Assembly (NCBI RefSeq): GCF_000760695.4
Contig: NZ_JHEG04000001.1
Span: 586,295-635,588, forward strand
Length of the DNA stretch: 49,294 nucleotides
DNA from: Tolypothrix bouteillei VB521301
GTDB lineage: Bacteria > Cyanobacteriota > Cyanobacteriia > Cyanobacteriales > Nostocaceae
Direction: 5' to 3'
Position 1 is the first letter of the stretch; every line of letters begins with the position of its first letter. The notes beneath the pieces were generated by a model that had not been told where the DNA came from, did not search any database, and saw only the letters and a program-made list of their open reading frames with translations. A program made the translations under genes and the position numbers. Below, piece by piece: positions 1-49,153 of this stretch.

Positions 1-224
1 CCCTTTCGCTCACCACTACTGAGGGAATCTCTATTGATTTCTTTTCCTCCAGCTACTAAGATGTTTCAATTCACTGGGTTCGCTCTTTCGTTATTGGGTT
101 GCCCCATTCGGACATCTCCGGCTCACTGCATGCTTCCTGCTCCCCGGAGCTTTTCGTTGGTAACCACGTCCTTCTTCGCCTCTGTGTGCCTAGGTATCCA
201 CCATGAGCCCTTCTTCTCTTGACC
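1..224 (-). rRNA. 23S ribosomal RNA, 5' end (partial)
   Basis: Read on the minus strand, the sequence from 224 downward matches the conserved bacterial 23S 5' end (GGTCAAGAG, then CATGGTGGATACC, then GGCGAAGAAGGACGTGG). The 5' end was placed at the GGTCAAG motif by analogy with other cyanobacterial 23S genes. The gene runs off the window at position 1. It lies downstream of the 16S gene in the same rRNA operon. Confidence 0.95.
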
Positions 225-260
225 ACTATTGCTGAATGCTAACTGCTCATCGCTAATTTC

Positions 261-281
261 CATTAGCCATTAGCTATTAGC
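261..281. repeat. ATTAGCC-type heptamer repeat
   Basis: Three near-identical heptamers (ATTAGCC, ATTAGCT, ATTAGC) lie in tandem just upstream of the 23S. The same heptamer family recurs at 38981-39015, so it is an interspersed short tandem repeat of this genome rather than an rRNA signal. Confidence 0.7.
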
Positions 282-330
282 TTTTCGCTTTTAGTTACTT
301 TCGCTTTTCTATGCAGTTTTCAAGGTTCTG

Positions 331-347
331 GCTGGAACATTTCCAGC
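331..347 (-). other. ITS box B hairpin
   Basis: GCTGGAA and TTCCAGC form a 7-bp stem with a 3-nt loop. It lies immediately upstream (in transcription direction) of the box A-like GAACCTTGAAAACTG. The position and order fit the box B/box A antitermination region of cyanobacterial rRNA spacers. Confidence 0.65.
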
Positions 348-481
348 AGTCTTGTTCCCTTGCGGTTTCAAGTTGCTGAATTTCTTCTATTGATAAGTGC
401 CCAAATCATCAATGCTTTGGCATTTTTTTCCGAACCCACACTAGTTTGAAAGCCAATTTTCTTTACCTCGCACGACCTAGG

Positions 482-556
482 ATTTCTGAATTATGAATTC
501 TGAATTATGAAGTGTGAATTGTGAATTTCATCATTCATAATTTATCATTCATAATT
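482..556. repeat. ATTATGAATTC-type short tandem repeats
   Basis: A run of imperfect direct and inverted copies of GAATTATGAATTCTGAATTA, TCATTCATAATTTATCATTC and similar words lies directly downstream of the 16S. It is typical cyanobacterial short tandemly repeated repetitive sequence. It can fold but shows no conserved ITS element. Confidence 0.7.
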
Positions 557-571
557 TAGTTGGTCTCCCTA

Positions 572-2060
<1,489 letters not shown>

Positions 2061-33364: not shown

Positions 33365-34900
33365 TTAGTTACTGATTTGGATGATACTGGTTGTCTGTTT
33401 TTGATTGTTGACTACTTTTTGCTGATACTGATAGACAATAAATCCTCCTAAGAGGCAAGTTTTCAAGAAAGCGAGACTTAATGTCATAATCAGTAACCGT
33501 TGTGCTTGAGCAGTTTTCTTTTCTTGTGCTAAACGTCTTTGTTCCTCTGTCAGGCGGGCTTCAACTTCTTTAAGTCGCTCTGCTTCCAATACTTGTTGCA
33601 TTTCTCGCCGATCTAATTGGTTAGAAGCAGCTAAAAACTGATAATCTAAGTCACTTAAGCTTTTGCCTTGCGACCAAATCTGAGCATCAATTAATGCTTG
33701 TCCGCGCAATAGTCTTGAAGAATCTGTTTGCTTTGACGCAATCCAAGCATCGAAAGCTTGAGAATAGGGACGCAAAAATCCAAATTGCTTGTCTACCCAA
33801 TCTACGTTGAAGACTTCTTGATAAATCCGGTTTTTCACTTGAAGATAACCTTTTTGTCTGACAACCAAACCCGATAGCAGAAGTTCAATTTGCTCGCGAC
33901 TATCATCTGTTGGTACTTTCAAGCCCTGCAAAATTTGTTGATATATGCCAAGCAATCTTCCTGCACGCTGGGAATTTGCTAGAATGCGATCGCGAATTGT
34001 TCGCAAATGTTCTGGATCGTCTTGAGATTCCCATTGAGCGATCAGCCTTTCTCTAACAACCCTTTCTACCCAAAATGCTTCTGTCCCAGGGAAGATAGAT
34101 ACGCCTGTTGTTTTAGAGCCCTGAATAAAAGTAACAACTAGCTGGCACAATTTTTGCGTGAGAAAAGGTTGTCCGCCAGTCCAGTCCAATATTTCTTTCA
34201 AAATTGCTTGGGGTTGGTTCACTGGTATGGCGGACAATCCTTTGACTAATGGTTGTGCTTCTTCTAATCGAAATCCGTGAATTTCTATAGCTTTTCCTAT
34301 ATTAAATGGAGTACAGTTCCTATCTTGAATTAAATCTGATGGGGTTGCTACTCCAAAAATTGCAAAAGTAATACGATTGTATTCGGGATCTATAGCCCGT
34401 TGATTGTAACAGTAGCGAATTAAGGCAAAAAAATCGTCTACTGAAAAGTCTAGACTGAGAATACTATCAATCTCGTCTATAAAGATAAAAAGTTTTTCAT
34501 GAGGAAATTCTACCAACAGGACTTCAGATATAAAGCGGCTTAATTTTTGCAGTAGCGAGATTCCTTCTTGCTCGCTCCACCAAGCCTTAAAGTTAATTTT
34601 CTTATACAGCTTAAAACCCGAACACAATTCGGCAACGACTCCCTTATACCACTGCAATGGAGTAATGTTTTCACTACCGATATTAGTCATGTCTATCGTA
34701 GCGCATTTAAAACCTTGCTCCTGCAAGCGCTGACGAGTTTTTACCATCAGAGAGGATTTGCCCACCTGTCTTGAGTTGAGGACATAACAAAACTCTCCTT
34801 CTTTCAAGGCATTGTACAATTCCAAATCTGCTTTTCGTTCGACGTAACTTGGTGCATCAGTAGTGAGGCTACCACCAATTTGGTATTGGTAGAGGGTCAT
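33365..34900 (-). CDS. AAA-like NTPase with C-terminal membrane helix
   Basis: 511 aa. AAA-like (AAA_35-type) P-loop domain over about 1-350: starts YQYQIGGSLTTDAPSYVERK, Walker A RQVGKSSL, Walker B LFIFIDEIDSIL, then [17 protein letters not shown] and [15 protein letters not shown]. After a winged-helix-like part and a coiled coil (RREMQQVLEAERLKEVEARL) comes one hydrophobic helix (LSLAFLKTCLLGGFIVYQY). Closely related to the NTPase half of the divergent gene at 36079, so the two arose by duplication. In cyanobacteria this module usually precedes CHASE2, WD40 or kinase outputs; here the output is only a membrane helix. Role unknown, probably signalling. Confidence 0.82.
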   Translation of the reverse strand: MTLYQYQIGGSLTTDAPSYVERKADLELYNALKEGEFCYVLNSRQVGKSSLMVKTRQRLQEQGFKCATIDMTNIGSENITPLQWYKGVVAELCSGFKLYKKINFKAWWSEQEGISLLQKLSRFISEVLLVEFPHEKLFIFIDEIDSILSLDFSVDDFFALIRYCYNQRAIDPEYNRITFAIFGVATPSDLIQDRNCTPFNIGKAIEIHGFRLEEAQPLVKGLSAIPVNQPQAILKEILDWTGGQPFLTQKLCQLVVTFIQGSKTTGVSIFPGTEAFWVERVVRERLIAQWESQDDPEHLRTIRDRILANSQRAGRLLGIYQQILQGLKVPTDDSREQIELLLSGLVVRQKGYLQVKNRIYQEVFNVDWVDKQFGFLRPYSQAFDAWIASKQTDSSRLLRGQALIDAQIWSQGKSLSDLDYQFLAASNQLDRREMQQVLEAERLKEVEARLTEEQRRLAQEKKTAQAQRLLIMTLSLAFLKTCLLGGFIVYQYQQKVVNNQKQTTSIIQISN

Positions 34901-36078: not shown

Positions 36079-38847
36079 ATGAGTTTCTACGTGTATCAAG
36101 TAGGTGGTAGTCTGAGAAGTGATGCTCCGAGTTATATGGAGCGACAGGCGGATGAGGAACTCTATAAAGCGCTTAAGAATGGTGAATTTTGCTATGTCCT
36201 CAACACTAGGCAAATGGGCAAATCTTCCCTATTAGTGAGAACCAAGCACCGTTTGCAACAACAAGGGTTCCAATGTACAAGTATTGACATGACAAATATT
36301 GGCAGTGAAACTGTGACTCCTGCTCAATGGTACAAGGGAATTGTGGGCGAGTTATGGTCTGGTTTTAAGCTTTCAAAAAAACTTAATTTGAAAACCTGGT
36401 GGCTAGAACACGAAAGTGTTTCTTTACCCCAAAGACTCAGTAAGTTTATTTCTGATATTCTGCTTGTCCAAATACCAGAAAGATTAGTTGTTTTTATTGA
36501 TGAGGTGGATAGCATTCTCAGTCTTGATTTTCCAGTAGATGATTTTTTTGCCCTGATTCGTTTTTGCTACAATCAACGAGCTATCGATCCAAAATATCAA
36601 CGCATTACCTTTGCTTTGTTTGGAGTGGCAACACCTTCAGATTTGATCCAAGATAAAAAGCGCACTCCGTTTAATCTTGGTAGAGCTATAGAACTGCAAG
36701 ATCTTTCTCTGGAGCAAGTTCAACCTTTAGCAAAGGGATTGCTTGTAGAGGAAATAGCTGGGGAATCTGTACAAGTGCCTGTCATTCTTAAAGAAATTTT
36801 AGCTTGGACCGGAGGTCAGCCCTTTCTTACACAAAAATTGTGTCATATAATACAGAATTACATCCAAGATGCTGTTAGTGGTGGTTTAACGATCCCACTT
36901 GGTGGAGAGGCTTTTTGGGTAGAAAGTATTGTTAAGTCACGGATCGTTGATAGATGGGAATTTCAAGATGAACCTCAACATTTTAGGACTATTCGCGATC
37001 GCCTTTTAGCTGATGAAAAAATAGCAGGACAGCTCTTAAGTATATATCAACAAATACTTGCGGGAGATCGTGTACCAAATGAGGACAGCCGAGAACATAT
37101 AGAACTACAACTATCAGGTTTAGTTGTCCGCAAACAGGGAAAACTGAAAGTCAAAAACCCTATTTACAAAGCCATTTTTAATCAGGAATGGGTTGGCAAA
37201 CAACTAGAGAGTATGCGTCCTTATGCACAAAATCTAAAAGCTTGGATTGCTTCATCACAACAAGACAAGTCACAACTTCTGCAAGGTCACGCATTACAAG
37301 AAGCACTCGCTTGGTCTGAAGATAAAAAGCTTAGCGATATAGACTATCGTTTTTTAGCTGCCAGTCAAGAACTAGTAAAACAAGAACTAGAAAAATCTCT
37401 TGCTTTAGAGAAACGAGCAAGACAAATTGAGCGAGAAAAAGCACAATTTGCACTGCAAGCTGCAAGACAAGCTTATCATATCTTGGCTGATGCACGACAA
37501 GTTGCCAGACAGTATGCCCAAAATATAAATTTACGGAAAGCATGGATTGCCAGAATTGCAGGAGGTGTTGCAGGCTCAGTCATTCTGTTGCGTTTGTCAG
37601 GTTTGCTACAAGGTATGGAATGGGCAGCACTAGATAATTTTTTCCAAGCGCGTTCTCCTGCGGCAATCGATCCCCGTGTTGTCATAATTGCAATTGATGA
37701 GCCAGATATTAAGGCAGTAGGTCAGTATCCAATTTCAGATCTGCGACTCGCTCAAGCACTCCAAACTTTAAAAAGCTATAAGCCCAGAGCTATTGGGCTG
37801 GATGTGTATAGAGATTTACCCGTGGAACCAGGTCATCAAGAGTTAGTCAAACTGTATAAAACGACTCCAAATTTAATTGGTATTGAGAAAGTTGTAGGAA
37901 GTCAAGTCGATCCACCTCCTGTTTTGTCAAAGTTAGGTCAGGTGGGAATGTCAGATCAGGTGTTGGATGGAGATGGCAAAGTTCGTCGTGCCTTACTTTC
38001 AGTTCGCTCTCAAAAAGTAGGATTGCGTTTCAATTTGGGTTTGCGACTGGCATTACTGTATTTAAAAGTTGAAGGAATCACGCCCAAACCGCTTTCCACA
38101 TTACCACACCACATTCAGTTGGGAAAAACTGTGCTTGTTCCCTTTAGACCCAATTATGGTGGCTACGTCCGCAGTGATGCAGGCGGTTATCAAATCTTAC
38201 TTAACTTTCATGGAACTGAAAAACAATTCCAAATGTTTTCCTTAACAGATTTGTTGGCAAAGCGCATTCCACAAGACAAAATTTACAATCGGGTTGTGCT
38301 AATTGGCTTAACAGCAGAAAGCACGAATGATATGTTTCAAACACCTTACAGCACTCACCTATTCGATCCCCCGTCTAGGATGGCTGGAGTCACATTACAC
38401 GCAAATATTGCCAGTCAAATTCTAAGCGCCGCTTTAGATGGGCGACCGATGCTAAAAGTTTGGTCTGAACCAATTGAGTGGTTGTGGATTCTTTTATGGT
38501 CTGGACTCGGAGCAGCATTGAGTTGGCAGGCTAAAACATTTAAAAATATACTATTTCTTCTTGCGATCGCGAGTGGAGGAATAATAGGAATTAGTTTCCT
38601 CGCCTTTTTAAAAGGTTGGTGGATTCCTATCATCCCTCCACTGATTGGAGTCGTCTGTGCAGCCGTTTTCGTACAGATTTGTGTTAGCAAATACTTGGAG
38701 AAGATACAACTGCGGGAAACAGTAAAGTTATTAGTTAACCTCGCCAAGGATCAACCAGCCGAAGGACAAATTGCTATTGAGTATCTCAAGCAAGCAGAAA
38801 GTAAAGACAATCAAGCTTTTATTGAGAAAATTATTAGAAATTTGTAA
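36079..38847 (+). CDS. AAA-like NTPase fused to CHASE2 sensor domain
   Basis: 922 aa. N-terminal AAA-like NTPase (about 1-350): Walker [10 protein letters not shown], Walker [27 protein letters not shown] and [12 protein letters not shown] helical/coiled-coil linker follows to about 490. A TM helix at about 493-510 precedes an extracytoplasmic CHASE2 domain ([20 protein letters not shown], then [16 protein letters not shown], and [15 protein letters not shown] with TPYS). Three more TM helices ([50 protein letters not shown]) come before a short cytoplasmic tail. CHASE2 usually senses an external ligand and feeds a kinase or cyclase; here an NTPase stands on the other side of the membrane. 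Divergent from its shorter paralogue. Confidence 0.9.
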
Positions 38848-41134: not shown

Positions 41135-42085
41135 TTAGCCTTTCCCAAGAGTTTCACCAATCGCAAAAATTAACTCCACAGGATCTACAGGCTTGGTTAA
41201 GTGTTTTTGAAAACCAGCTGATAGCGCTTGTTGGTGGTTGGTTTCTCCAGCATAAGCAGTCAACGCGATCGCGGGCAAAAACCTATCTTGTTCTGTAGGT
41301 AGATCTCGCAACTTCTGAATGAACGTGTAACCATCCATTTCTGGCATTCCTATATCGCTCAGTAGTAAATCGGGTTGCCATTGTGCGAGGATAGAAAGAG
41401 CTTCTCGAGATGAACTTACAGCACGCACCTCCACACCATACTGTTCCAGGGTAAAGGTAATTAACTCCAGATTGTCAGGCTCATCATCCACAACCAGTAC
41501 CCGCACACCTTCTACAATTGGGAAGTTATGGCGAATGCGATTCTCTTCAGCGCTCGTTTGTACGCTCCTCATGAGGGGAATTGTGACAGTAAACGTTGCG
41601 CCCATTCCCTCTCCCAAGCTTTCTGCTTTGACCAAACCACCATGAAGTTCCACCAAATGGCGAGCGATCGCTAGCCCCAGTCCCAACCCCCCAAAGGCTC
41701 TTGTCGTTGTGCTGTTTTCTTGACGGAAGTAATCAAACACATAAGGGATAAAATGGGGGCTAATACCTTTGCCTGTATCCCGAATGATAACTTGAGCATT
41801 ACCATGCTCGCCTTGAAGTCGAACTTCTACGCACCCACCTTCCGGTGTAAACTTCACAGCATTTGAGAGGAGATTCCAAAAAAATCACTCCAATAATATT
41901 GGAATCAACCAAACGTCGAAACTTCGCTTCACTTACTTGCAGTTTTCGCAAATTCAGTTGAGTGCGTTTTTGAGATGTGCGTAACGCGCCGGACAAGACA
42001 CTAATGAAAACACCTTCCCAAACAAATATGAAGACTCGTGTACTGCCAAATAGGGTAAAATCAAGTCGATCGGGTAAACCTATCA
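41135..42085 (-). pseudogene. Hybrid histidine kinase remnant with internal deletion
   Basis: The N-terminal piece (minus strand from about 42085) encodes RLDFTLFGSTRVFIFVWEGV, ISVLSGALRTSQKRTQ and a PAS start KFRRLVDSNIIGVIF. At a T7 run near 41877-41883 it jumps, out of frame, to WNLLSNAVKFTPEGG. From there the ATPase domain is intact (DTGKGI, FDYFRQ, GLGLGLAIARHL) and is followed by a complete receiver (VLVVDDEPDN, LLLSDIGMPEMDG, LTKPV). The rest of PAS and all of HisKA with its His are missing, and the 5' end is cut by the IS200/IS605-type element. The distal frame from 41857 could still make an ATPase-receiver fragment. Confidence 0.82.
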
Positions 42086-42107
42086 AAACATAGTGGGAGC
42101 GCGAGAA

Positions 42108-42162
42108 CCCCTGTGTTTTTAACCAGGGGATGAAGCGCGACGCAACAGGTTTTAACCTGTTG
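42108..42162 (-). repeat. Subterminal hairpins of the IS element
   Basis: Two imperfectly spaced stems: CCCCTG...CAGGGG (42108-42129) and CAACAGGTT-TT-AACCTGTTG (42143-42162), just past the tnpA stop codon. IS200/IS605 ends are recognised by TnpA as such single-strand hairpins; which one is used is not certain. Confidence 0.55.
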
Positions 42163-42165
42163 TCT

Positions 42166-42579
42166 TCATTTCCCACGCTGATTTTCAATGTATTTTTTAA
42201 CTACCTCTGTGCTTACTTGACCTGTTGACGCTACAAAGTAGGTCGGTGTCCACAAAGCAGGTAGTTTTTTTAAAGAAGGAAATTCTTTTCTTAAGTGATG
42301 AGATGCGCGACCTTTGACCCATTTAGCGATTTGGGAGGGTGCTTCATCTGTAGGTGCATTGATGAACATATGTACGTGGTCGGGTTGAATTTCTAATGCA
42401 ATAAGTCTCCAGTTATGTTCTTGCACCAATTCAAAGATAATTTCTTGCAGTCTTCTGGCAATATCAGTGACTAAAACGGGTCTTCTACGTTTGGGGACAA
42501 ATACAAAATGATAATTGATTGAGGATACGGAATTTTCCGTTCTTCTGTAGTCATGGTCATCCTGAGAAAGTTTTGCCAT
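42166..42579 (-). CDS. tnpA: IS200/IS605-family Y1 transposase TnpA
   Basis: 137 aa, full length. HUH nuclease motif in QPDHVHMFINAP (His68, His70) and the catalytic Tyr130 in EVVKKYIENQ. It excises and inserts the element as single-stranded DNA using terminal hairpins. NYHFVFVPKRRRPVL and WVKGRASHHLRKEFP are characteristic. The protein appears intact and could act in trans on related elements even though its own element lost one end. Confidence 0.93.
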   Translation of the reverse strand: MAKLSQDDHDYRRTENSVSSINYHFVFVPKRRRPVLVTDIARRLQEIIFELVQEHNWRLIALEIQPDHVHMFINAPTDEAPSQIAKWVKGRASHHLRKEFPSLKKLPALWTPTYFVASTGQVSTEVVKKYIENQRGK

Positions 42580-42644: not shown

Positions 42645-43196
42645 GTGTATAAAACTTTGCCAGTAAAAGCAAGGTTTACAGATATTGAAGAAGCATTTTG
42701 GCTCGACCAATGCCAACACGCCAACAGTTTGATTAATTGTGCTCTTTATCATGTTCGTCAAACTCATTATTCAAGACTAGAAGAGTCAGGCAATGCTTTC
42801 ACAATCTACTGGAAAGGTGATGAGTTACGGCATGGTTGGAAGACATATAAATGTTTCACGACTTATCCCGAACTCGATAAAATTCTTAAGGACAATCCAC
42901 ATTACAAGGCTCTTGCCGCACAAGCCGTACAGCAAACATTGAAATCTGTAGGTGAGTCAATTACCTCGTACAACGGATTGGTAAATGCCTACTACAGAGG
43001 TGAAGTAGATAAACCATCTTTACCACAATATAGAAAAAGTGGTGGACTTGCAGCAGTTACGTTCCCACGACAAGCACTTACTTACAAAGATGGTTGTTTT
43101 TATCCATCAATCAGTAGAGAAACTACAATTGAAAAAGGTGAGATCCATACCGCTCGATCGATTTTAACGCCGAGAAAATTCGATAACATTTCCTAA
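42645..43196 (+). pseudogene. Truncated TnpB (OrfB) nuclease
   Basis: 183 codons (GTG start), of which about 160 are TnpB-like: MYKTLPVKARFTDIEEAFWL, SLINCALYHVRQTHYS and SITSYNGLVNAYYRGEVDKP. Intact TnpB is about 400 aa; the RuvC catalytic residues and zinc finger, which lie in the C-terminal half, are missing. The last about 20 codons run into the 3' end of the convergent aspartyl protease gene. No RNA-guided nuclease activity is expected. Confidence 0.82.
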
Positions 43197-43703
43197 AATT
43201 TTGACATCATAGTTATCGAAGAAATTATGACCTAACAGTCCAATACCCGCTTTTGGAGCGATCGCAACTTCAACATTATTCACCACAGCGCCACCAACAG
43301 CAATGGAATTCACTTGACTCAGAGAAAATTTGACTTGACTACCATCAGCAATTTCTGCTTGCATGTTACCTGTGGGCTTAAGCTTTAGAGTATTTGCCAT
43401 GTTTGAGGTGATTAGAGTTATGCTAGCACCCGTATCAACAATCATTTCAAAAGTTTTATGCCCGTTAAACGTAACGTCCACAACTGGTGTTTTTCCCATA
43501 CGGCGTTTGATGGGAATCCGAAAAACCCCTTTATCTGAAGGTGTAACACCGCATAATTTTCCCAAACTTATGGCTCTACCAGAAGTCGTTACCATGTAGC
43601 AGGCTCCCATGTCTTGAGCAGTTATTCTCTCTGAGGATGCCAAAAACACCAAAGTGGAGACCAATGCAATTGTTTTTATCCATCTACCCACAACCCTTTT
43701 CAT
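43164..43703 (-). CDS. Retropepsin-like aspartyl protease, exported
   Basis: 179 aa with an N-terminal signal peptide (IKTIALVSTLVFLASS). The aspartyl protease signature MIVDTGASITLIT (Asp90) and the second hydrophobic motif GLLGHNFFDNYDV are as in TIGR02281/retropepsin-like proteins, which act as homodimers. CYMVTTSGRAISLGKLCG before the domain contains two Cys. The end EFSRR-stop looks natural, so the gene seems intact even though its 3' end abuts the truncated tnpB. Substrate unknown; location periplasmic or membrane. Confidence 0.82.
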   Translation of the reverse strand: MKRVVGRWIKTIALVSTLVFLASSERITAQDMGACYMVTTSGRAISLGKLCGVTPSDKGVFRIPIKRRMGKTPVVDVTFNGHKTFEMIVDTGASITLITSNMANTLKLKPTGNMQAEIADGSQVKFSLSQVNSIAVGGAVVNNVEVAIAPKAGIGLLGHNFFDNYDVKILGNVIEFSRR

Positions 43704-44299
43704 CCAATTCTCCCAATCCTCATGCTTACCTGCCTATAACTAATTTACCCAGAGGAGCAGAGAAACAAACAGCCAACTGTCACAGAGCAATGAGCGGATG
43801 AGCGTGCTACGCACAAGGGAACGCACTGGTCTCACCGCTTGCGGTTAAAGCACTTTACCAAGGTGTTTGGTCGCGAGCGGTTATTATATTGCAAAATATA
43901 AACTTCTTTACAGGCTTAACTACTGGTATGCTTTGGTTGTGTTAACGAGATTCAATCCCACGCAAAAGCAGTACAAACCATCATTGTCAGGGAGCCTCTA
44001 TGCGGTTTTTACTTTGCACGTTTCTAACTTTCTCATGAGAAATTACGAATGACGAACATCTTGCCTCTGTTCCCATTCGAGATATTCCTCAGCAGTCATT
44101 TTTTGGGGTTGTTGGGTAATGGCTACCATAATCTTTGAACACCTTGACTTTTTTGTGGCTCTGGTTTGATTGTAGCGTTCTGGGTGAAGGTGAAAGTTAG
44201 TCAGAACTCTGATTCAGAGTTCTCTTGCCAACTTTCTCTTAACCCCATATTCTGTCTAATATGTCAACTTGTAGGTATTAAACCTTTCTCCAAGTGTTT
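43704..44299. other. Intergenic region with a Uma2 relic
   Basis: About 600 bases between the protease and the CHAT/NB-ARC gene. A 61-codon plus-strand frame (43867-44052) looks non-coding. The only coding trace is the minus-strand Uma2 start at 44043-44129. It should contain the promoter of the large gene; no clear -10/-35 or ribosome binding site was placed. Confidence 0.5.
44043..44129 (-). pseudogene. N-terminal remnant of a Uma2-family endonuclease
   Basis: 28 codons on the minus strand: MVAITQQPQKMTAEEYLEWE, then QRQDVRHS and TAA. This matches the usual start of Uma2 (DUF820) restriction-endonuclease-fold proteins (MTAEEYLxWE...RHEYIDGE). The sequence breaks exactly at the RHEYIDG position; the catalytic domain is absent. 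A relic of a common cyanobacterial family. Confidence 0.7.
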
Positions 44300-47200
44300 A
44301 TGAGTCACGGCCCGCGTATCAAAACAATTCTGATTCTGGCTGCCATTCCCCACGGACTACGCTTGGACAAGGAAATTCGTTCAATTGAAGAAGCTATCCG
44401 CCGTGCTGCAAAGCGGGATGTCTTCGAGATTAAGATTAGAACTGCTGTCCGCACTCAGGATATTCGCCACGCTCTTGCAGAAGAACAACCCCAAATTGTT
44501 CATTTTTGCGGACACGGGCTAGAAGATGGTAGCTTGCTATTAGAAGATGACTCAGGAGAAAACAAGCCCGTTCCAGCAAAAGGGCTAGCATCACTGTTTC
44601 AGTTGCACGCAGATTATGTGGAATGCGTACTGCTTAATGTCTGTCATTCTGACAAACAAGCTACTGCAATTAGCAAACACGTCAATTACGCGATCGGGAT
44701 GAATCAGCCCATTGGAGATAAGGCAGCGATCGCATTTGCTATTGGATTTTACGATGGATTGGGCTACGCAACTTCAAATAATCTTGATGTGTTTCAAAGG
44801 GCTTTTGAGGAAGGTTTGGTTGCAATTCAATTAGAACATCCGAACGAAGGGCAAATTCCAGTTTTGCAAAGAAAAGCCAGTATAGATAAACATATCTATA
44901 AAAACCGTTTCCCTCAAGGTAGAAATTTTCAAGCACCACCCCTACCCGCTCACTTTGTAGACCGCCCAGAGTACAGCCAAGATTTAAAGAATCTTCTCCT
45001 TAAAAAATCATTAGATAATCGCACTTTAGCAGTGACCGCCATTCACGGTTTAGGTTCTGTGGGCAAATCGACCATTACAGCTGCTTTAGCACATGACGAA
45101 GATATACAAGTTCATTTTTGTGATGGCATTCTTTGGGCAACTCTGGGTCAGCAACCCGATGTCCTTTCCCTACTGAGTGGTTGGGTACAGGCTTTGGGCG
45201 ACTATAACTTTAAGCCAACCAGTACAGACGCCGCTACCAATCATCTCCGTACCCTGTTATATGACAAAGCTGTGCTGTTGGTTGTAGATGATGCCTGGGA
45301 TACAAAGCACGCACAAGCATTTAATGTAGGTGGTTCTAAGTGTCAGGTACTGGTTACAACTCGGGAGGGTGCGATCGCTAAAGTGTTAGGAGCGAGTATC
45401 TATAGCTTAGATGTGATGAAACCATCCCAGGCTATAGAACTGCTGACAAAGAAGTTAGGACGTGACATGATAGGGACAGAGTGTCAGGAAGCTGAAACCT
45501 TAGCAAAAGAGGTTGGGTATCTCCCCCTAGCACTGGAATTGGCAGCAGCCCAGATTGCAAGTGGTACGTCTTGGGCAATCTTATTACAAGATATTCAACT
45601 TGAAATTGCTCGGTTAAAAACTTTTGATGACCCTGAAGCTCGTGATATGACTGATGAAGCTTCCTTAAAACGTCTTAGCTTAAGAGCATCATTAAATTTA
45701 AGCGTACAGCGATTGCCAGAAGAAGAAAGGCAAAATTTTATTTGGCTCGGGGTGTTACCAGAGGATGCAACCATTACTCACTCAATGACGGTAACACTTT
45801 GGAATCTAGAGGATGAGCGCGATGCAACTGATACATTGGAATACTTACAAAGTAAGGCGCTGCTATTACCTGGTGAGACTTTACTTAACGGTACATCCAC
45901 TTACCGTTTGCACGACTTATTTCATGACTTAGCTCGTAATTTGTTAACTGCTCCTGAAAAACCAAAACGTTATGGTGATTTGCCTGGATTGGGTTTGAAG
46001 TTGAGTGATGCTCACTGCCAGTTTTTGGAGCGGTACCGAGAAAAAACCGAAAATGGTTTATGGCATACCCTACCAAGTGATGGTTATATATATCAGCGTC
46101 TTGTTTGGCATTTAGAAAAGGCGGGTAAAAAAGAGGAAATTCACAAATTGTTACAGGAGGAAACTCCGTTAGGACGCAATGGGTGGTATGAGGCGTGTGC
46201 GAGCAATGGGCAAAATGCCATTTTTGTGACTGACATAGCACGCGCTTGGTTTTTAGCTGAAGAAATGTTTCACGAAGAACCTTCGCAGTCAATAGCACTA
46301 CAGTGCCGTTATGCTCTGATGACTGCATCCCTGAATAGTCTCACAGCTAATGTACCAGTAGAATTGCTGCAAGCATTAGTGAAAAAAAATGTGTGGACTC
46401 CAGAACAAGGATTAGCTTATACCCTGCAAAGCTCGAATTCAGAGCTAAAAGCACGATTGCTTGCGGAGCTAGTCAATTGTTTGCCATCAAACGCAAAAGA
46501 ATTAGCACTCTCAAAAGCTCTTGCTGTCGCCAAAGAAATTCAGGATGAGTCTCGTCGCGCTCTAGCCTTGAGTACCTTAGCGGACAAATTGCCACCACAA
46601 TTATTACCCGAAGCTCTTGCTGCCGTCAGAGCGATTCAGGATAAGTTGAGCCGCGCCTCTGCCCTGGGTTCCTTAGCTGGCAAATTGCCCGAGGTGTTAC
46701 CAGAAGCTCTTGCTGTCGCCAGAGAAATTCAGGATGAGTCTCGTCGTACCTCTGCTCTAAGTACCTTAGCGGACAAATTGCCACCACAATTATTACCAGA
46801 AGCTCTTGCTGTCGCCAGAGAAATTCAGGATGAGTGGAGCCGCGCCTCTGTCCTGAGTGCCTTAGCGGACAAATTGCCACCACAATTATTACCAGAAGCT
46901 CTTGCTACCGCCAAAGAAATTCAGAATGAGTGGAGCCGCGCTTCTACCCTGAGTGCCTTAGCTAATAAACTGCCACCACAATTATTACCAGAGGCTCTCG
47001 CTGCTGTCAGAGCGATTCAGGATAAGTTGAGCCGCGCCTCTGCCCTGGGTTCTTTAGCTCACAAACTGCCGGAGGTGTTACCAGAAGCTCTTACTGCCGC
47101 TAGAGAAATTCCGTCTGAGACTCGTCGCGCCGATATCCTGAGTGCGTTAGTTGACAAATTGCCACCACAATTATTACCAGAAGCTCTTGCGATCGCTAGA

Positions 47201-49153
47201 GAGATTCAAGATGAGTCTTATCGCGTCTGTGCCCTGAGTGCTTTAGCTGACAAACTGCCGAAGGTGCTACCAGAAGCTCTTGCCATAGCCAGAGTAATTG
47301 CATCTGAGCGGCATCGTGCCTCTGCCCTGAGTGCCTTAGCGGACAAATTGCCACCACAATTATTACCAGAAGCTCTTGCTCTCACCAAAGAGATTCTGTC
47401 TGAGTGGCATCGTGCCTCTGCCCTGATTTCTTTAGCTGACAAACTGCCACCACAATTATTACCAGAAGCTCTTGCCATAGCCAGAGAGATTCAAGATCGA
47501 TCTTGTCGTGCCTCTGCCCTGAGTTCCTTAGCTGACAAATTGTCGCCACAATTATTACCAGAAACTCTCGCTATAGCCAGAGCAATTCAGGATGAGGAGT
47601 ATTGCGCCGATGCCCTGGGTGCTTTAGCTGAGAAACTACCTTCAATGTTAACATTAGCTCTGGCTATAGCCAGAAAGATTCCGTCTGAGTGGCGTCGCGC
47701 CTCTGCCCTGAGTTCCTTAGCTGACAAACTGCCGCAGGTCTTACCAGAAGCTCTCGATGCTGCTAGAGAGATTCCGTCTGAGTGGCGTCGCGCCTCTGCC
47801 CTGAGTTCCTTAGCTGACAAACTGCCGCAGGTCTTACCAGAAGCCCTCGCTGCTGCCAGAGAGATTCCGTCTGAGTGGCGTCGCGCCTCTGCCCTGAGTT
47901 CCTTAGCGGGTAAACTGTCACCAGAATTATTACCAGAAGCTCTTGCCATAGCCAAAGAGATTCAGGGTGAGTCTCCTCGCGCTGATGCCCTGAGTTCCTT
48001 AGCGGGTAAACTGCCACCAGAATTATTACCAGAAGCTCTTACCATAGCTAAAGAGATTCAGGGTGAGTCTCCTCGCGCTGATGCCCTGAGTTCCTTAGCT
48101 GACAAACTGCCACCAGAATTATTACCAGAAGCTCTTGCCATAGCCAAACAGTTTCAATCTGAGTGGCGTCGCGCCGATGCCTTAAGTACCTTAGCTGATA
48201 AACTGCCGCAGGTCTTACCAGAAGCTCTCGCCACAGCCAGAGAGATTCCGTCTAAATCTCGTCGCGCCGATGCCTTGGGTGCCTTAGCTGATAAACTGCC
48301 CTCAGTGTTACCAGAAGCTCTCGCCATAGCCAGAGAGATTCAGAGTGAGTCTCCTCGTGCCTCTGCCCTGAGTTCATTAGCTGATAAACTGCCACCAGAA
48401 TTATTACTAGAAGCACTTGCCATAGCCAAAGAAATTCAGGATGAGTGGAGCCGCGCCAATGCCCTCAGTGCCTTAGCTAATAAACTGACACCAGAATTAC
48501 TACCAGAAGCTCTCGCCATAGCCAGAGAGATTCAGAGTGAGTCTCCTCGTGCATCTGCCCTGAGTTCATTAGCTGATAAACTGCCACCAGAATTATTACT
48601 AGAAGCACTTGCCATAACCAGAGACATTCAGGATGAGTGGAACCGTGCCAATACCTTGAGTGCCTTAGCTGATAAACTGCTACCAGAATTATTACCAGAA
48701 GCACTTGCCATAGCCAGAGACATTCAGGATGAGTCTCCTCGCGCCTCTGTCCTAAGTTCTTTAGCTACCAAACTGCCCTCAGTGTTACCAGAAGTACTTG
48801 CCATAGCCAGAGACATTCCGTCTGAGGAGCATCGCGCCTATACCCTAAGTGCCTTAGCTGACAAATGGCCCCCACAGCTATTACTAGAAGCACTTGCCAT
48901 AACCGGAGAGATTCCATCTGAGGAGTATCGCGCCCATACCTTAAGTGCCTTAGCTCTCCCTTTGTCAAAGATACCAACGACTTTACTTTTTCCTGTCTGG
49001 GGGCAGACACTTCATGAGTTATCTCTTCGTACTCGTCAAAATTTATTGAGAGATATAAAAACACTAGTTCCAGTTATTTTTGCATTAGGAGGTCAGGGGG
49101 CAATAGCAGAAGCGAGTTGTGCTATCTCAAATGTGGCACGATGGTGGCAATAA
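44300..49153 (+). CDS. CHAT protease - NB-ARC STAND NTPase with about 26 helical repeats
   Basis: 1617 aa from ATG 44300 (GTG 44294 is possible; residue numbers here count from it). Residues 10-200: CHAT caspase-like domain with catalytic His74 in VHFCGHG and Cys117 in LLNVCHSD. Residues 220-550: NB-ARC with Walker A GLGSVGKST (252-260), Walker B LLVVDD (328-333), VLVTTRE (352-358), GLPLAL-like GYLPLAL (408-414) and an MHD-like LHDLFHDLA (539-547). After a helical linker, about 26 repeats of 31/32 residues (about 736-1555) of the form LPPxLLPEALAxAxEI are followed by a distinct tail ending ISNVARWWQ. This is an NLR-like plan: sensor repeats, nucleotide switch, protease effector. Probably a defence or programmed-death protein; no dedicated substrate gene is adjacent. 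Confidence 0.9.
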   Translation: MSHGPRIKTILILAAIPHGLRLDKEIRSIEEAIRRAAKRDVFEIKIRTAVRTQDIRHALAEEQPQIVHFCGHGLEDGSLLLEDDSGENKPVPAKGLASLFQLHADYVECVLLNVCHSDKQATAISKHVNYAIGMNQPIGDKAAIAFAIGFYDGLGYATSNNLDVFQRAFEEGLVAIQLEHPNEGQIPVLQRKASIDKHIYKNRFPQGRNFQAPPLPAHFVDRPEYSQDLKNLLLKKSLDNRTLAVTAIHGLGSVGKSTITAALAHDEDIQVHFCDGILWATLGQQPDVLSLLSGWVQALGDYNFKPTSTDAATNHLRTLLYDKAVLLVVDDAWDTKHAQAFNVGGSKCQVLVTTREGAIAKVLGASIYSLDVMKPSQAIELLTKKLGRDMIGTECQEAETLAKEVGYLPLALELAAAQIASGTSWAILLQDIQLEIARLKTFDDPEARDMTDEASLKRLSLRASLNLSVQRLPEEERQNFIWLGVLPEDATITHSMTVTLWNLEDERDATDTLEYLQSKALLLPGETLLNGTSTYRLHDLFHDLARNLLTAPEKPKRYGDLPGLGLKLSDAHCQFLERYREKTENGLWHTLPSDGYIYQRLVWHLEKAGKKEEIHKLLQEETPLGRNGWYEACASNGQNAIFVTDIARAWFLAEEMFHEEPSQSIALQCRYALMTASLNSLTANVPVELLQALVKKNVWTPEQGLAYTLQSSNSELKARLLAELVNCLPSNAKELALSKALAVAKEIQDESRRALALSTLADKLPPQLLPEALAAVRAIQDKLSRASALGSLAGKLPEVLPEALAVAREIQDESRRTSALSTLADKLPPQLLPEALAVAREIQDEWSRASVLSALADKLPPQLLPEALATAKEIQNEWSRASTLSALANKLPPQLLPEALAAVRAIQDKLSRASALGSLAHKLPEVLPEALTAAREIPSETRRADILSALVDKLPPQLLPEALAIAREIQDESYRVCALSALADKLPKVLPEALAIARVIASERHRASALSALADKLPPQLLPEALALTKEILSEWHRASALISLADKLPPQLLPEALAIAREIQDRSCRASALSSLADKLSPQLLPETLAIARAIQDEEYCADALGALAEKLPSMLTLALAIARKIPSEWRRASALSSLADKLPQVLPEALDAAREIPSEWRRASALSSLADKLPQVLPEALAAAREIPSEWRRASALSSLAGKLSPELLPEALAIAKEIQGESPRADALSSLAGKLPPELLPEALTIAKEIQGESPRADALSSLADKLPPELLPEALAIAKQFQSEWRRADALSTLADKLPQVLPEALATAREIPSKSRRADALGALADKLPSVLPEALAIAREIQSESPRASALSSLADKLPPELLLEALAIAKEIQDEWSRANALSALANKLTPELLPEALAIAREIQSESPRASALSSLADKLPPELLLEALAITRDIQDEWNRANTLSALADKLLPELLPEALAIARDIQDESPRASVLSSLATKLPSVLPEVLAIARDIPSEEHRAYTLSALADKWPPQLLLEALAITGEIPSEEYRAHTLSALALPLSKIPTTLLFPVWGQTLHELSLRTRQNLLRDIKTLVPVIFALGGQGAIAEASCAISNVARWWQ
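46500..48958 (+). repeat. Array of about 26 tandem 93/96-bp coding repeats
   Basis: In-frame repeats inside the CHAT/NB-ARC gene. Two unit lengths exist: 32 residues (LPPQLLPEAL or LPPELLPEAL start) and 31 residues (LPxVLPEAL start). Each ends (A/D)ALSxLADK. Several units are almost identical in DNA (for example around 47690-47910, three successive units; 48310-48640, a repeated two-unit block), showing recent duplication. Predicted to form an alpha solenoid, two helices per unit. Confidence 0.93.

Follow-up and report, generated by a model that had tools for sequence, protein, structure and literature searches.

Those bacterial STAND proteins whose antiviral action has been characterised are described as binding conserved proteins of tailed phages, and sensors diversified by retroelements have also been described (PMC10907252; like the other papers, cited here for its available sections). 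In bacterial amyloid signalling, a receptor is paired with an effector and CHAT is among the named partners (PMC7889193); CHAT is also named among the BASS-linked domains (PMC7159879, PMC8195603, PMC7889193). In Trichodesmium, one protein combines a NACHT domain with nine repeats of the HEAT_PBS type and a metacaspase domain (PMC3501461). Among repeat proteins, the highly repetitive WD40 proteins, enriched in some cyanobacteria, combine uniform repeats with diverse interaction hot spots (PMC5587647), and the HEAT-like alphaRep library consists of man-made binders with variable positions 18, 19, 22, 23, 26 and 30 (PMC3754942).

The gene described here lies in a stretch of 49,294 nucleotides of the genome of Tolypothrix bouteillei VB521301 (the window). 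We propose, with a probability of about 0.7, that it encodes a bacterial NLR in which the repeat array binds a ligand by a stripe of four residues per unit, the NB-ARC domain switches and the CHAT domain cuts, the array being renewed and the output module swapped. In the available sections of the open-access literature we found no earlier report of codon-focused diversification in a HEAT-like NB-ARC family; its novelty is provisional because most subscription papers lie outside that scope.

Protein architecture

The gene occupies positions 44300..49153 of the forward strand (an alternative GTG start at 44294 is possible) and encodes a protein of 1617 residues. On the same strand follow, in order, the regions for a CHAT caspase-like domain (residues 6-192; 44315..44875), an NB-ARC domain (Pfam PF00931, E 1.6e-20; residues 235-420; 45002..45559), an APAF1_C-like helical segment (residues 568-618; 46001..46153; Pfam PF17908, E 4.7e-5, 23.8 bits against a cut-off of 22.8), an array of 26 units of 31 or 32 residues, the first one partial, forming a HEAT-like alpha-solenoid (46502..48940), and a helical cap at the C-terminus (48941..49150) that is common to most homologues seen in full. 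The sequence-only reading had noticed CHAT, NB-ARC, about 26 repeats and a separate tail in one polypeptide, and this observation is confirmed. The order of effector, switch and repeat sensor is that of STAND/NLR proteins, and both the Walker A (GLGSVGKST, residues 250-258; 45047..45073) and the Walker B (LLVVDDAW) motifs of NB-ARC were located. The PADLOC models that matched the receptor at E<=0.01 were chat and SAVED_CHAT only; the protein has no SAVED match in Pfam and no CRISPR part, and no EAD or amyloid-like motif was seen in it.

The CHAT domain was matched by PF12770 in the genome scan (32.8 bits, curated cut-off 24) and missed by hmmscan of the whole protein at E<=10. Fold matches to this region bear out the caspase-like fold that had been expected at the N-terminus, and the expected His/Cys dyad is present as well: the putative catalytic His72 (in GHG; 44513..44515) and Cys115 (in LLNVC; 44642..44644) align with the His and Cys of PDB 8tl0 and are kept in all rows compared (19/19 and 8/8).

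The genome of the window holds 39 CHAT matches, all above the family cut-off, and the small CHAT of the window's type is found in it on two other sensors (87% and 81% identity). The first is carried by a different NB-ARC protein with TPR (G000:C1, 1634196 onwards; L012:1501-3579), which probably reflects recent effector shuffling within one genome. The second belongs to a protein of 304 residues in which it is fused to a cyanovirin-type lectin domain, CVNH (G000:C2, 224329-224913; L013:1171-2085; reverse strand). The sharing of this CHAT by two other sensors suggests a substrate that is common to them and located elsewhere, as had been supposed from the lack of an adjacent target gene. No target gene was seen among the ten upstream ORFs (Pfam) or the downstream ORFs (by eye), and no defence gene was recognised by Pfam among the same ten upstream ORFs.

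The surroundings also contain a small gene for a retropepsin-like aspartyl protease just upstream of the receptor (window 43164-43703, reverse strand), histidine kinase remnants (HATPase_c and receiver) beside an IS200-like Y1 transposase gene (window 41135-42579), where the kinase gene looks interrupted, an AAA_35 protein (window 33365-34900) and an AAA_35-CHASE2 protein (window 36079-38847). A whole 16S and the start of a 23S rRNA gene lie at window 1-2060 on the reverse strand.

The repeat array and its hypervariable positions

In DNA, the array is a tandem repeat of 96 bp. Between its 25 full units, mean identity is 67.5% for residues and 76% for bases, and in 90 homologues with at least eight units the mean residue identity of units is 69% (range 44-90%). 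The receptor has neither a TPR nor a HEAT match in Pfam at E<=10 (filters drop most matches above 0.1); among homologues, the HEAT family PF13646 is listed for P0052 and P0104, and P0024 has a HEAT_2 match of E 8e-5, below the cut-off. A HEAT-like alpha-solenoid was matched for the array. In the sequence-only reading, the repeat family had matched neither the TPR nor the WD40 consensus. As a single sequence against solved structures, the repeats gave one match (E 0.093), and the repeat-only profile A3 had TON_1535 as its best match (E 5.1e-7). A sequence kinship with alphaRep was considered and set aside: it is weak, the matches of profile A2 were not repeated with A3, and the parallel is one of design only.

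We numbered the columns of the unit from the L of LSxLADKL, units of 31 residues lacking column 9. In the window array, pN reached 0.54, 0.52, 0.52 and 0.48 at columns 25, 27, 28 and 31, followed by 0.41 at column 19, with an overall value of 0.19. These four columns, hereafter hypervariable, were fixed on the window array alone and then tested on relatives, pN and pS being counting estimates made without a tree. The first set (20 loci and the window) yielded 22 arrays of at least four units, two of the relatives' loci (L071 and L072) having none of that length; the second set, fetched later, comprised 22 loci and 19 arrays of at least eight units, and there L088 and L089 had no array of at least four units. 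Four of 42 arrays were shorter than eight units and were dropped from the pooled set of 38. A query of contigs with one protein led to two loci, neither with an array of at least four units.

All 22 arrays of the first set, that of the window among them, had a pN/pS above 1 at the four columns (pS was zero in two) and under 1 over the remaining 28, although array counts are not independent, because the genomes are related and the units share ancestry. Ranked against all 35,960 possible sets of four columns, the chosen set came within the top 1% for 15 of the 18 arrays of at least eight units other than the window's, and within the top 0.1% for 12 of them, the exceptions to the top 1% being L081 (P 0.28), L082 (0.019) and L074 (0.012). 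In the second set, pN/pS exceeded 1 at the four columns in 17/19 arrays and stayed below 1 at the others in 18/19 (in L108 it was just above 1 there); the chosen columns reached the top 1% in 14/19 and the top 0.1% in only 6/19, and their pN surpassed the pS of the rest in only 14/19. When the 38 arrays (843 units) are pooled, the highest of the 32 columns are 27, 31, 28 and 25 (0.49, 0.43, 0.37 and 0.35; fifth-highest, 0.25), and the residues most used at these positions are D (23%), Y (20%), S (16%) and N (10%).

Of these tests, a comparison of codon bases was the clearest. The mean diversity in these 38 arrays was 0.433 at the first two bases of the hypervariable codons, 0.267 at their third base and 0.245 at fourfold sites of the same units. 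The first two bases exceeded the fourfold sites in 37/38 arrays, L081 being without the effect (0.42 against 0.48), and the third base was below the fourfold level in 17/38. Relaxed constraint does not explain this excess, because unconstrained positions would match the fourfold level, and neither does a local mutation hot spot, since the third base would rise too. By these counting tests, a few positions per unit are under positive selection. That the array varies mainly at four residues per unit, in the manner of fungal self/non-self receptors, suggests a recognition surface that may evolve by the swapping and diversification of repeats.

In the model of the array, one helix spans columns 26-32 and 1-5 and the other columns 10-21. 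Column 25 is predicted to cap the first helix, because the modelled helix starts at column 26, and columns 27, 28 and 31 would lie in its first turns; a reading of the helix register places these three opposite the conserved R29, A32, L1 and L4. A match with PP2A-A (9j5i_A) aligns 104-571 of the model with 12-582 of the chain, and several other PP2A matches end in the opposite register. The end points of the 9j5i_A match, taken with the helix limits of PR65, and an alphaRep-like spacing of variable positions suggest that the face may be concave. The excess change and the position of the residues together argue that the face would serve for binding.

Turnover of units and exchange of N-terminal modules

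In L078 and L068, the units are nearly identical DNA save for switches of whole codons, mostly at hypervariable positions. Over 142 pairs of units that differ by no more than one base in the remaining 28 codons, pN was 0.33 at the hypervariable columns and 0.0035 in the rest, a contrast conditioned on few differences outside those columns, and hence not our main evidence, and carried by few arrays (75 pairs from L078 and 29 from L068). The second set gave 17 such pairs, with 0.055 and 0.0039, and in 13 of them no hypervariable residue differed. Two Nostoc proteins of 1262 residues (P0081 and P0082) differ at four residues, all within columns 24-27 (column 25 of unit 3; columns 24, 26 and 27 of unit 16), and P0003 and P0004, from two Scytonema strains, are 95% alike over the 500 residues that begin with NB-ARC, with arrays of 4 and 22 units that have no hypervariable four-letter word in common; array lengths and single differences can reflect assembly, those of the Nostoc pair included. 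A change in repeat number is thus seen between related proteins. For 48% of 1416 units the nearest unit was in the same protein, against about 1% by chance, and a DNA search of the own genome outside the array found no donor cassettes. We infer that recombination renews the array.

Homologues were drawn from 8000 candidates sharing most words, which were scored; 808 were found among them, of which 120 were listed. Neither the N-terminus count nor the tree includes the twelve of these 120 that lacked the motif of the chassis start. When the remaining 108 listed homologues were split at the chassis start, their N-termini comprised 48 of an EAD4 cluster, 17 CHAT (8 small, 9 large), 4 TIR, 3 EAD1 and 2 trypsin-like ones, the rest being short, other or none. 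The EAD4 cluster, the commonest, was identified by Pfam PF19959 in two members checked, and the one trypsin-like member checked was below the Pfam cut-off. A quick NB-ARC tree of 74 rows with clear labels required 17 changes among six labels, the least possible being 5, or 15 changes if both CHAT types are merged. This count replaces one of 35 changes over ten labels (least 9), which included 'none', 'short' and 'other', some of them annotation effects; P0010, for example, was labelled 'none' and is probably the gene of L068, which begins with CHAT. One chassis carries different output modules, exchanged at its N-terminus.

In two relatives, another ORF lies directly beside the chassis ORF. 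In G047, an ORF for an EAD1-CHAT protein (L080:6105-7463, reverse strand) ends 32 bases before the chassis ORF; it has ISGKDNVVQNSTGNNNKSIGKVHG near its end, and the chassis has ISGYENVLQNTDGHSNILVGAVGG near its start. CHAT may therefore also act in trans, because the amyloid-like end motif of the EAD1-CHAT protein resembles the start motif of the receptor. The stretch between the domains and the motif looks BELL-type by eye. In G057 (contig C408), an ORF of 149 residues with a similar motif near its end (L073:3717-4163, forward strand) stands directly before a zinc-ribbon/amyloid-like chassis gene, whose ORF has such a motif near its start. With BELL-like, BASS-like and amyloid-like labels assigned by eye after PMC7889193, not by profile, both pairs resemble the receptor/effector pairing of bacterial amyloid signalling.

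The chassis, counted as a match to the NB-ARC segment at E <= 1e-120 and not as an array, is present in 63 of 217 genomes of the family, which belong to 24 of 56 genera, and in 44 of 388 genomes sampled from the order; both counts include the own genome. The idea of several chassis copies in the own genome was rejected: it has one copy and one array, and beyond them a weak NB-ARC match of 28% identity.

Discussion

We propose that the HEAT-like array would bind its ligand via the four hypervariable residues of each unit, the N-cap and three first-turn positions, the 26 units together forming one long combinatorial binding face. Ligand binding would release and oligomerise the NB-ARC-APAF1_C core, and the CHAT domains so brought together would cut, by way of His72 and Cys115, one or more cell proteins, such that the cell is killed or arrested. 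Unequal recombination or conversion would renew the number of units and the face, with selection at the four positions, and the N-terminal output module would be exchanged on the same chassis. The ligand, the oligomerisation, the proteolysis, the cell death and an invader as the selecting agent are parts of this scheme that we infer. The sensor, switch and cutter logic of the sequence-only reading gains support from the fold matches, the N-terminal swaps and, above all, the excess change on one stripe of the repeats. Its abortive infection and phage trigger are conjectural, and allorecognition fits the same data.

Allorecognition would make the array a receptor for kin discrimination that detects protein variants of conspecifics, like the fungal het NLRs. 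It agrees with the turnover of arrays between close relatives, with the patchy distribution of the NB-ARC chassis in the family and with a precedent in fungi, whose heterokaryon incompatibility involves hypervariable repeats (PMC4986451; PMC12222747, in their available sections), and the present data do not separate a phage ligand from a self ligand. We regard this explanation as unlikely. To our knowledge, no fungal-type cell fusion is established in filamentous cyanobacteria. A regulatory role is more doubtful: NB-ARC signalling of the AfsR kind, with CHAT processing a normal substrate and the array binding a variable host partner. AfsR is the nearest solved structure to the NB-ARC region by sequence (E 1.1e-24) and was also matched there in NCBIfam (115.8 bits, cut-off 1430). 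However, a Pfam search of the whole protein found no DNA-binding domain, EAD1, EAD4, TIR and trypsin-like modules are among the N-termini exchanged on the chassis, and a conserved partner would not give excess change at four exposed positions.

Neutral evolution of a minisatellite, in which slippage makes the array grow and shrink and the variable columns are no more than surface positions free of constraint, draws on the fact that the units are true DNA tandem repeats and on the predicted exposure of those columns. The excess of the first two hypervariable bases over fourfold sites speaks against it, as do L078 and L068, where codons are replaced whole in units whose DNA is otherwise nearly identical, and we find it very improbable. 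A diversity-generating retroelement leaves codons with a fixed third base and variable first two bases. Targeted mutagenesis by such an element could have written the hypervariable codons, and columns 25 and 28 often do show this pattern (NNT-like). Yet a search of the own genome, G007 and G006 found no template-like copy of a unit other than in chassis arrays (the remaining unit matches of G006 belong to the array of a second chassis gene), the adenines elsewhere in the unit are mostly invariant in L078 and L068, and the third-base diversity of the hypervariable codons is near background, such that we give this mechanism hardly any credence.

Returning to the NLR that we favour, it predicts that the four columns bind the ligand, that swaps of arrays move specificity and that CHAT is the output. 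A wider and tentative proposal, which we hold at somewhat less than even odds, is that multicellular cyanobacteria own a heritable, protein-coded repertoire of receptors, for sensing phages or for telling kin from non-kin, in which recombination reshuffles the array of one NLR chassis and four codons of each unit diversify anew, giving a lineage-specific combinatorial face, with exchangeable outputs (CHAT, TIR, trypsin-like, and EAD- or amyloid-coupled).

Comparison with known systems

In Apaf-1, the protease is recruited through a CARD. Unlike Apaf-1, CED-4 and the plant NB-ARC NLRs, the protein described here has a caspase-like protease fused at its N-terminus and a HEAT-like array where they have WD40 or LRR. 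It shares the CHAT fold and the aligned His/Cys pair with the SAVED-CHAT protease (PDB 8tl0), and the fold with the TPR-CHAT of Craspase (see PMC9729208). Each of these is a sensor-activated protease, and here the sensor would be a repeat array with a proposed NB-ARC switch. With regard to the EAD and BASS conflict systems (PMC7159879, PMC8195603, PMC7889193), the chassis of relatives carries EAD1, EAD4 and amyloid-like N-termini, whereas the CHAT of the window is fused directly; repeat diversification at fixed codons is not described in the available sections of those papers. The WD40 proteins (PMC5587647) have another repeat fold, and the available sections describe no DNA-level test for them.

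The variable positions of alphaRep have offsets of 0, 1, 4, 5, 8 and 12, and the most variable helix columns of the present arrays, 27, 28, 31, 3 and 6, have 0, 1, 4, 8 and 11; column 25 has no counterpart in the available description of the library, and the residue at offset 5 is in our arrays a conserved Ala (PMC3754942). A lineage-specific binding face, if true, would be a natural counterpart of that library.

The fungal NLRs (HET-D/E/R of the hnwd family; the NB-ARC/TPR and NACHT/ANK proteins of Podospora) are likewise tripartite with swappable N-terminal effectors (PMC4986451, PMC12222747; see also PMC2873952), and they also have concerted tandem repeats that change in number (PMC4986451, PMC12222747). 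Their positively selected positions lie on the binding face, and those of the present protein are predicted to form such a face; the unit identity of the window array (67.5%) is below the 85% bound given for fungal NLRs of high internal conservation. The present protein differs in being bacterial and known from sequence, with a CHAT effector and HEAT-like units of 31 or 32 residues in place of WD40, ANK or TPR. If our reading is true, evolution in the style of the fungal het receptors, with concerted repeats, few selected positions and swapped effectors, would also take place in multicellular bacteria.
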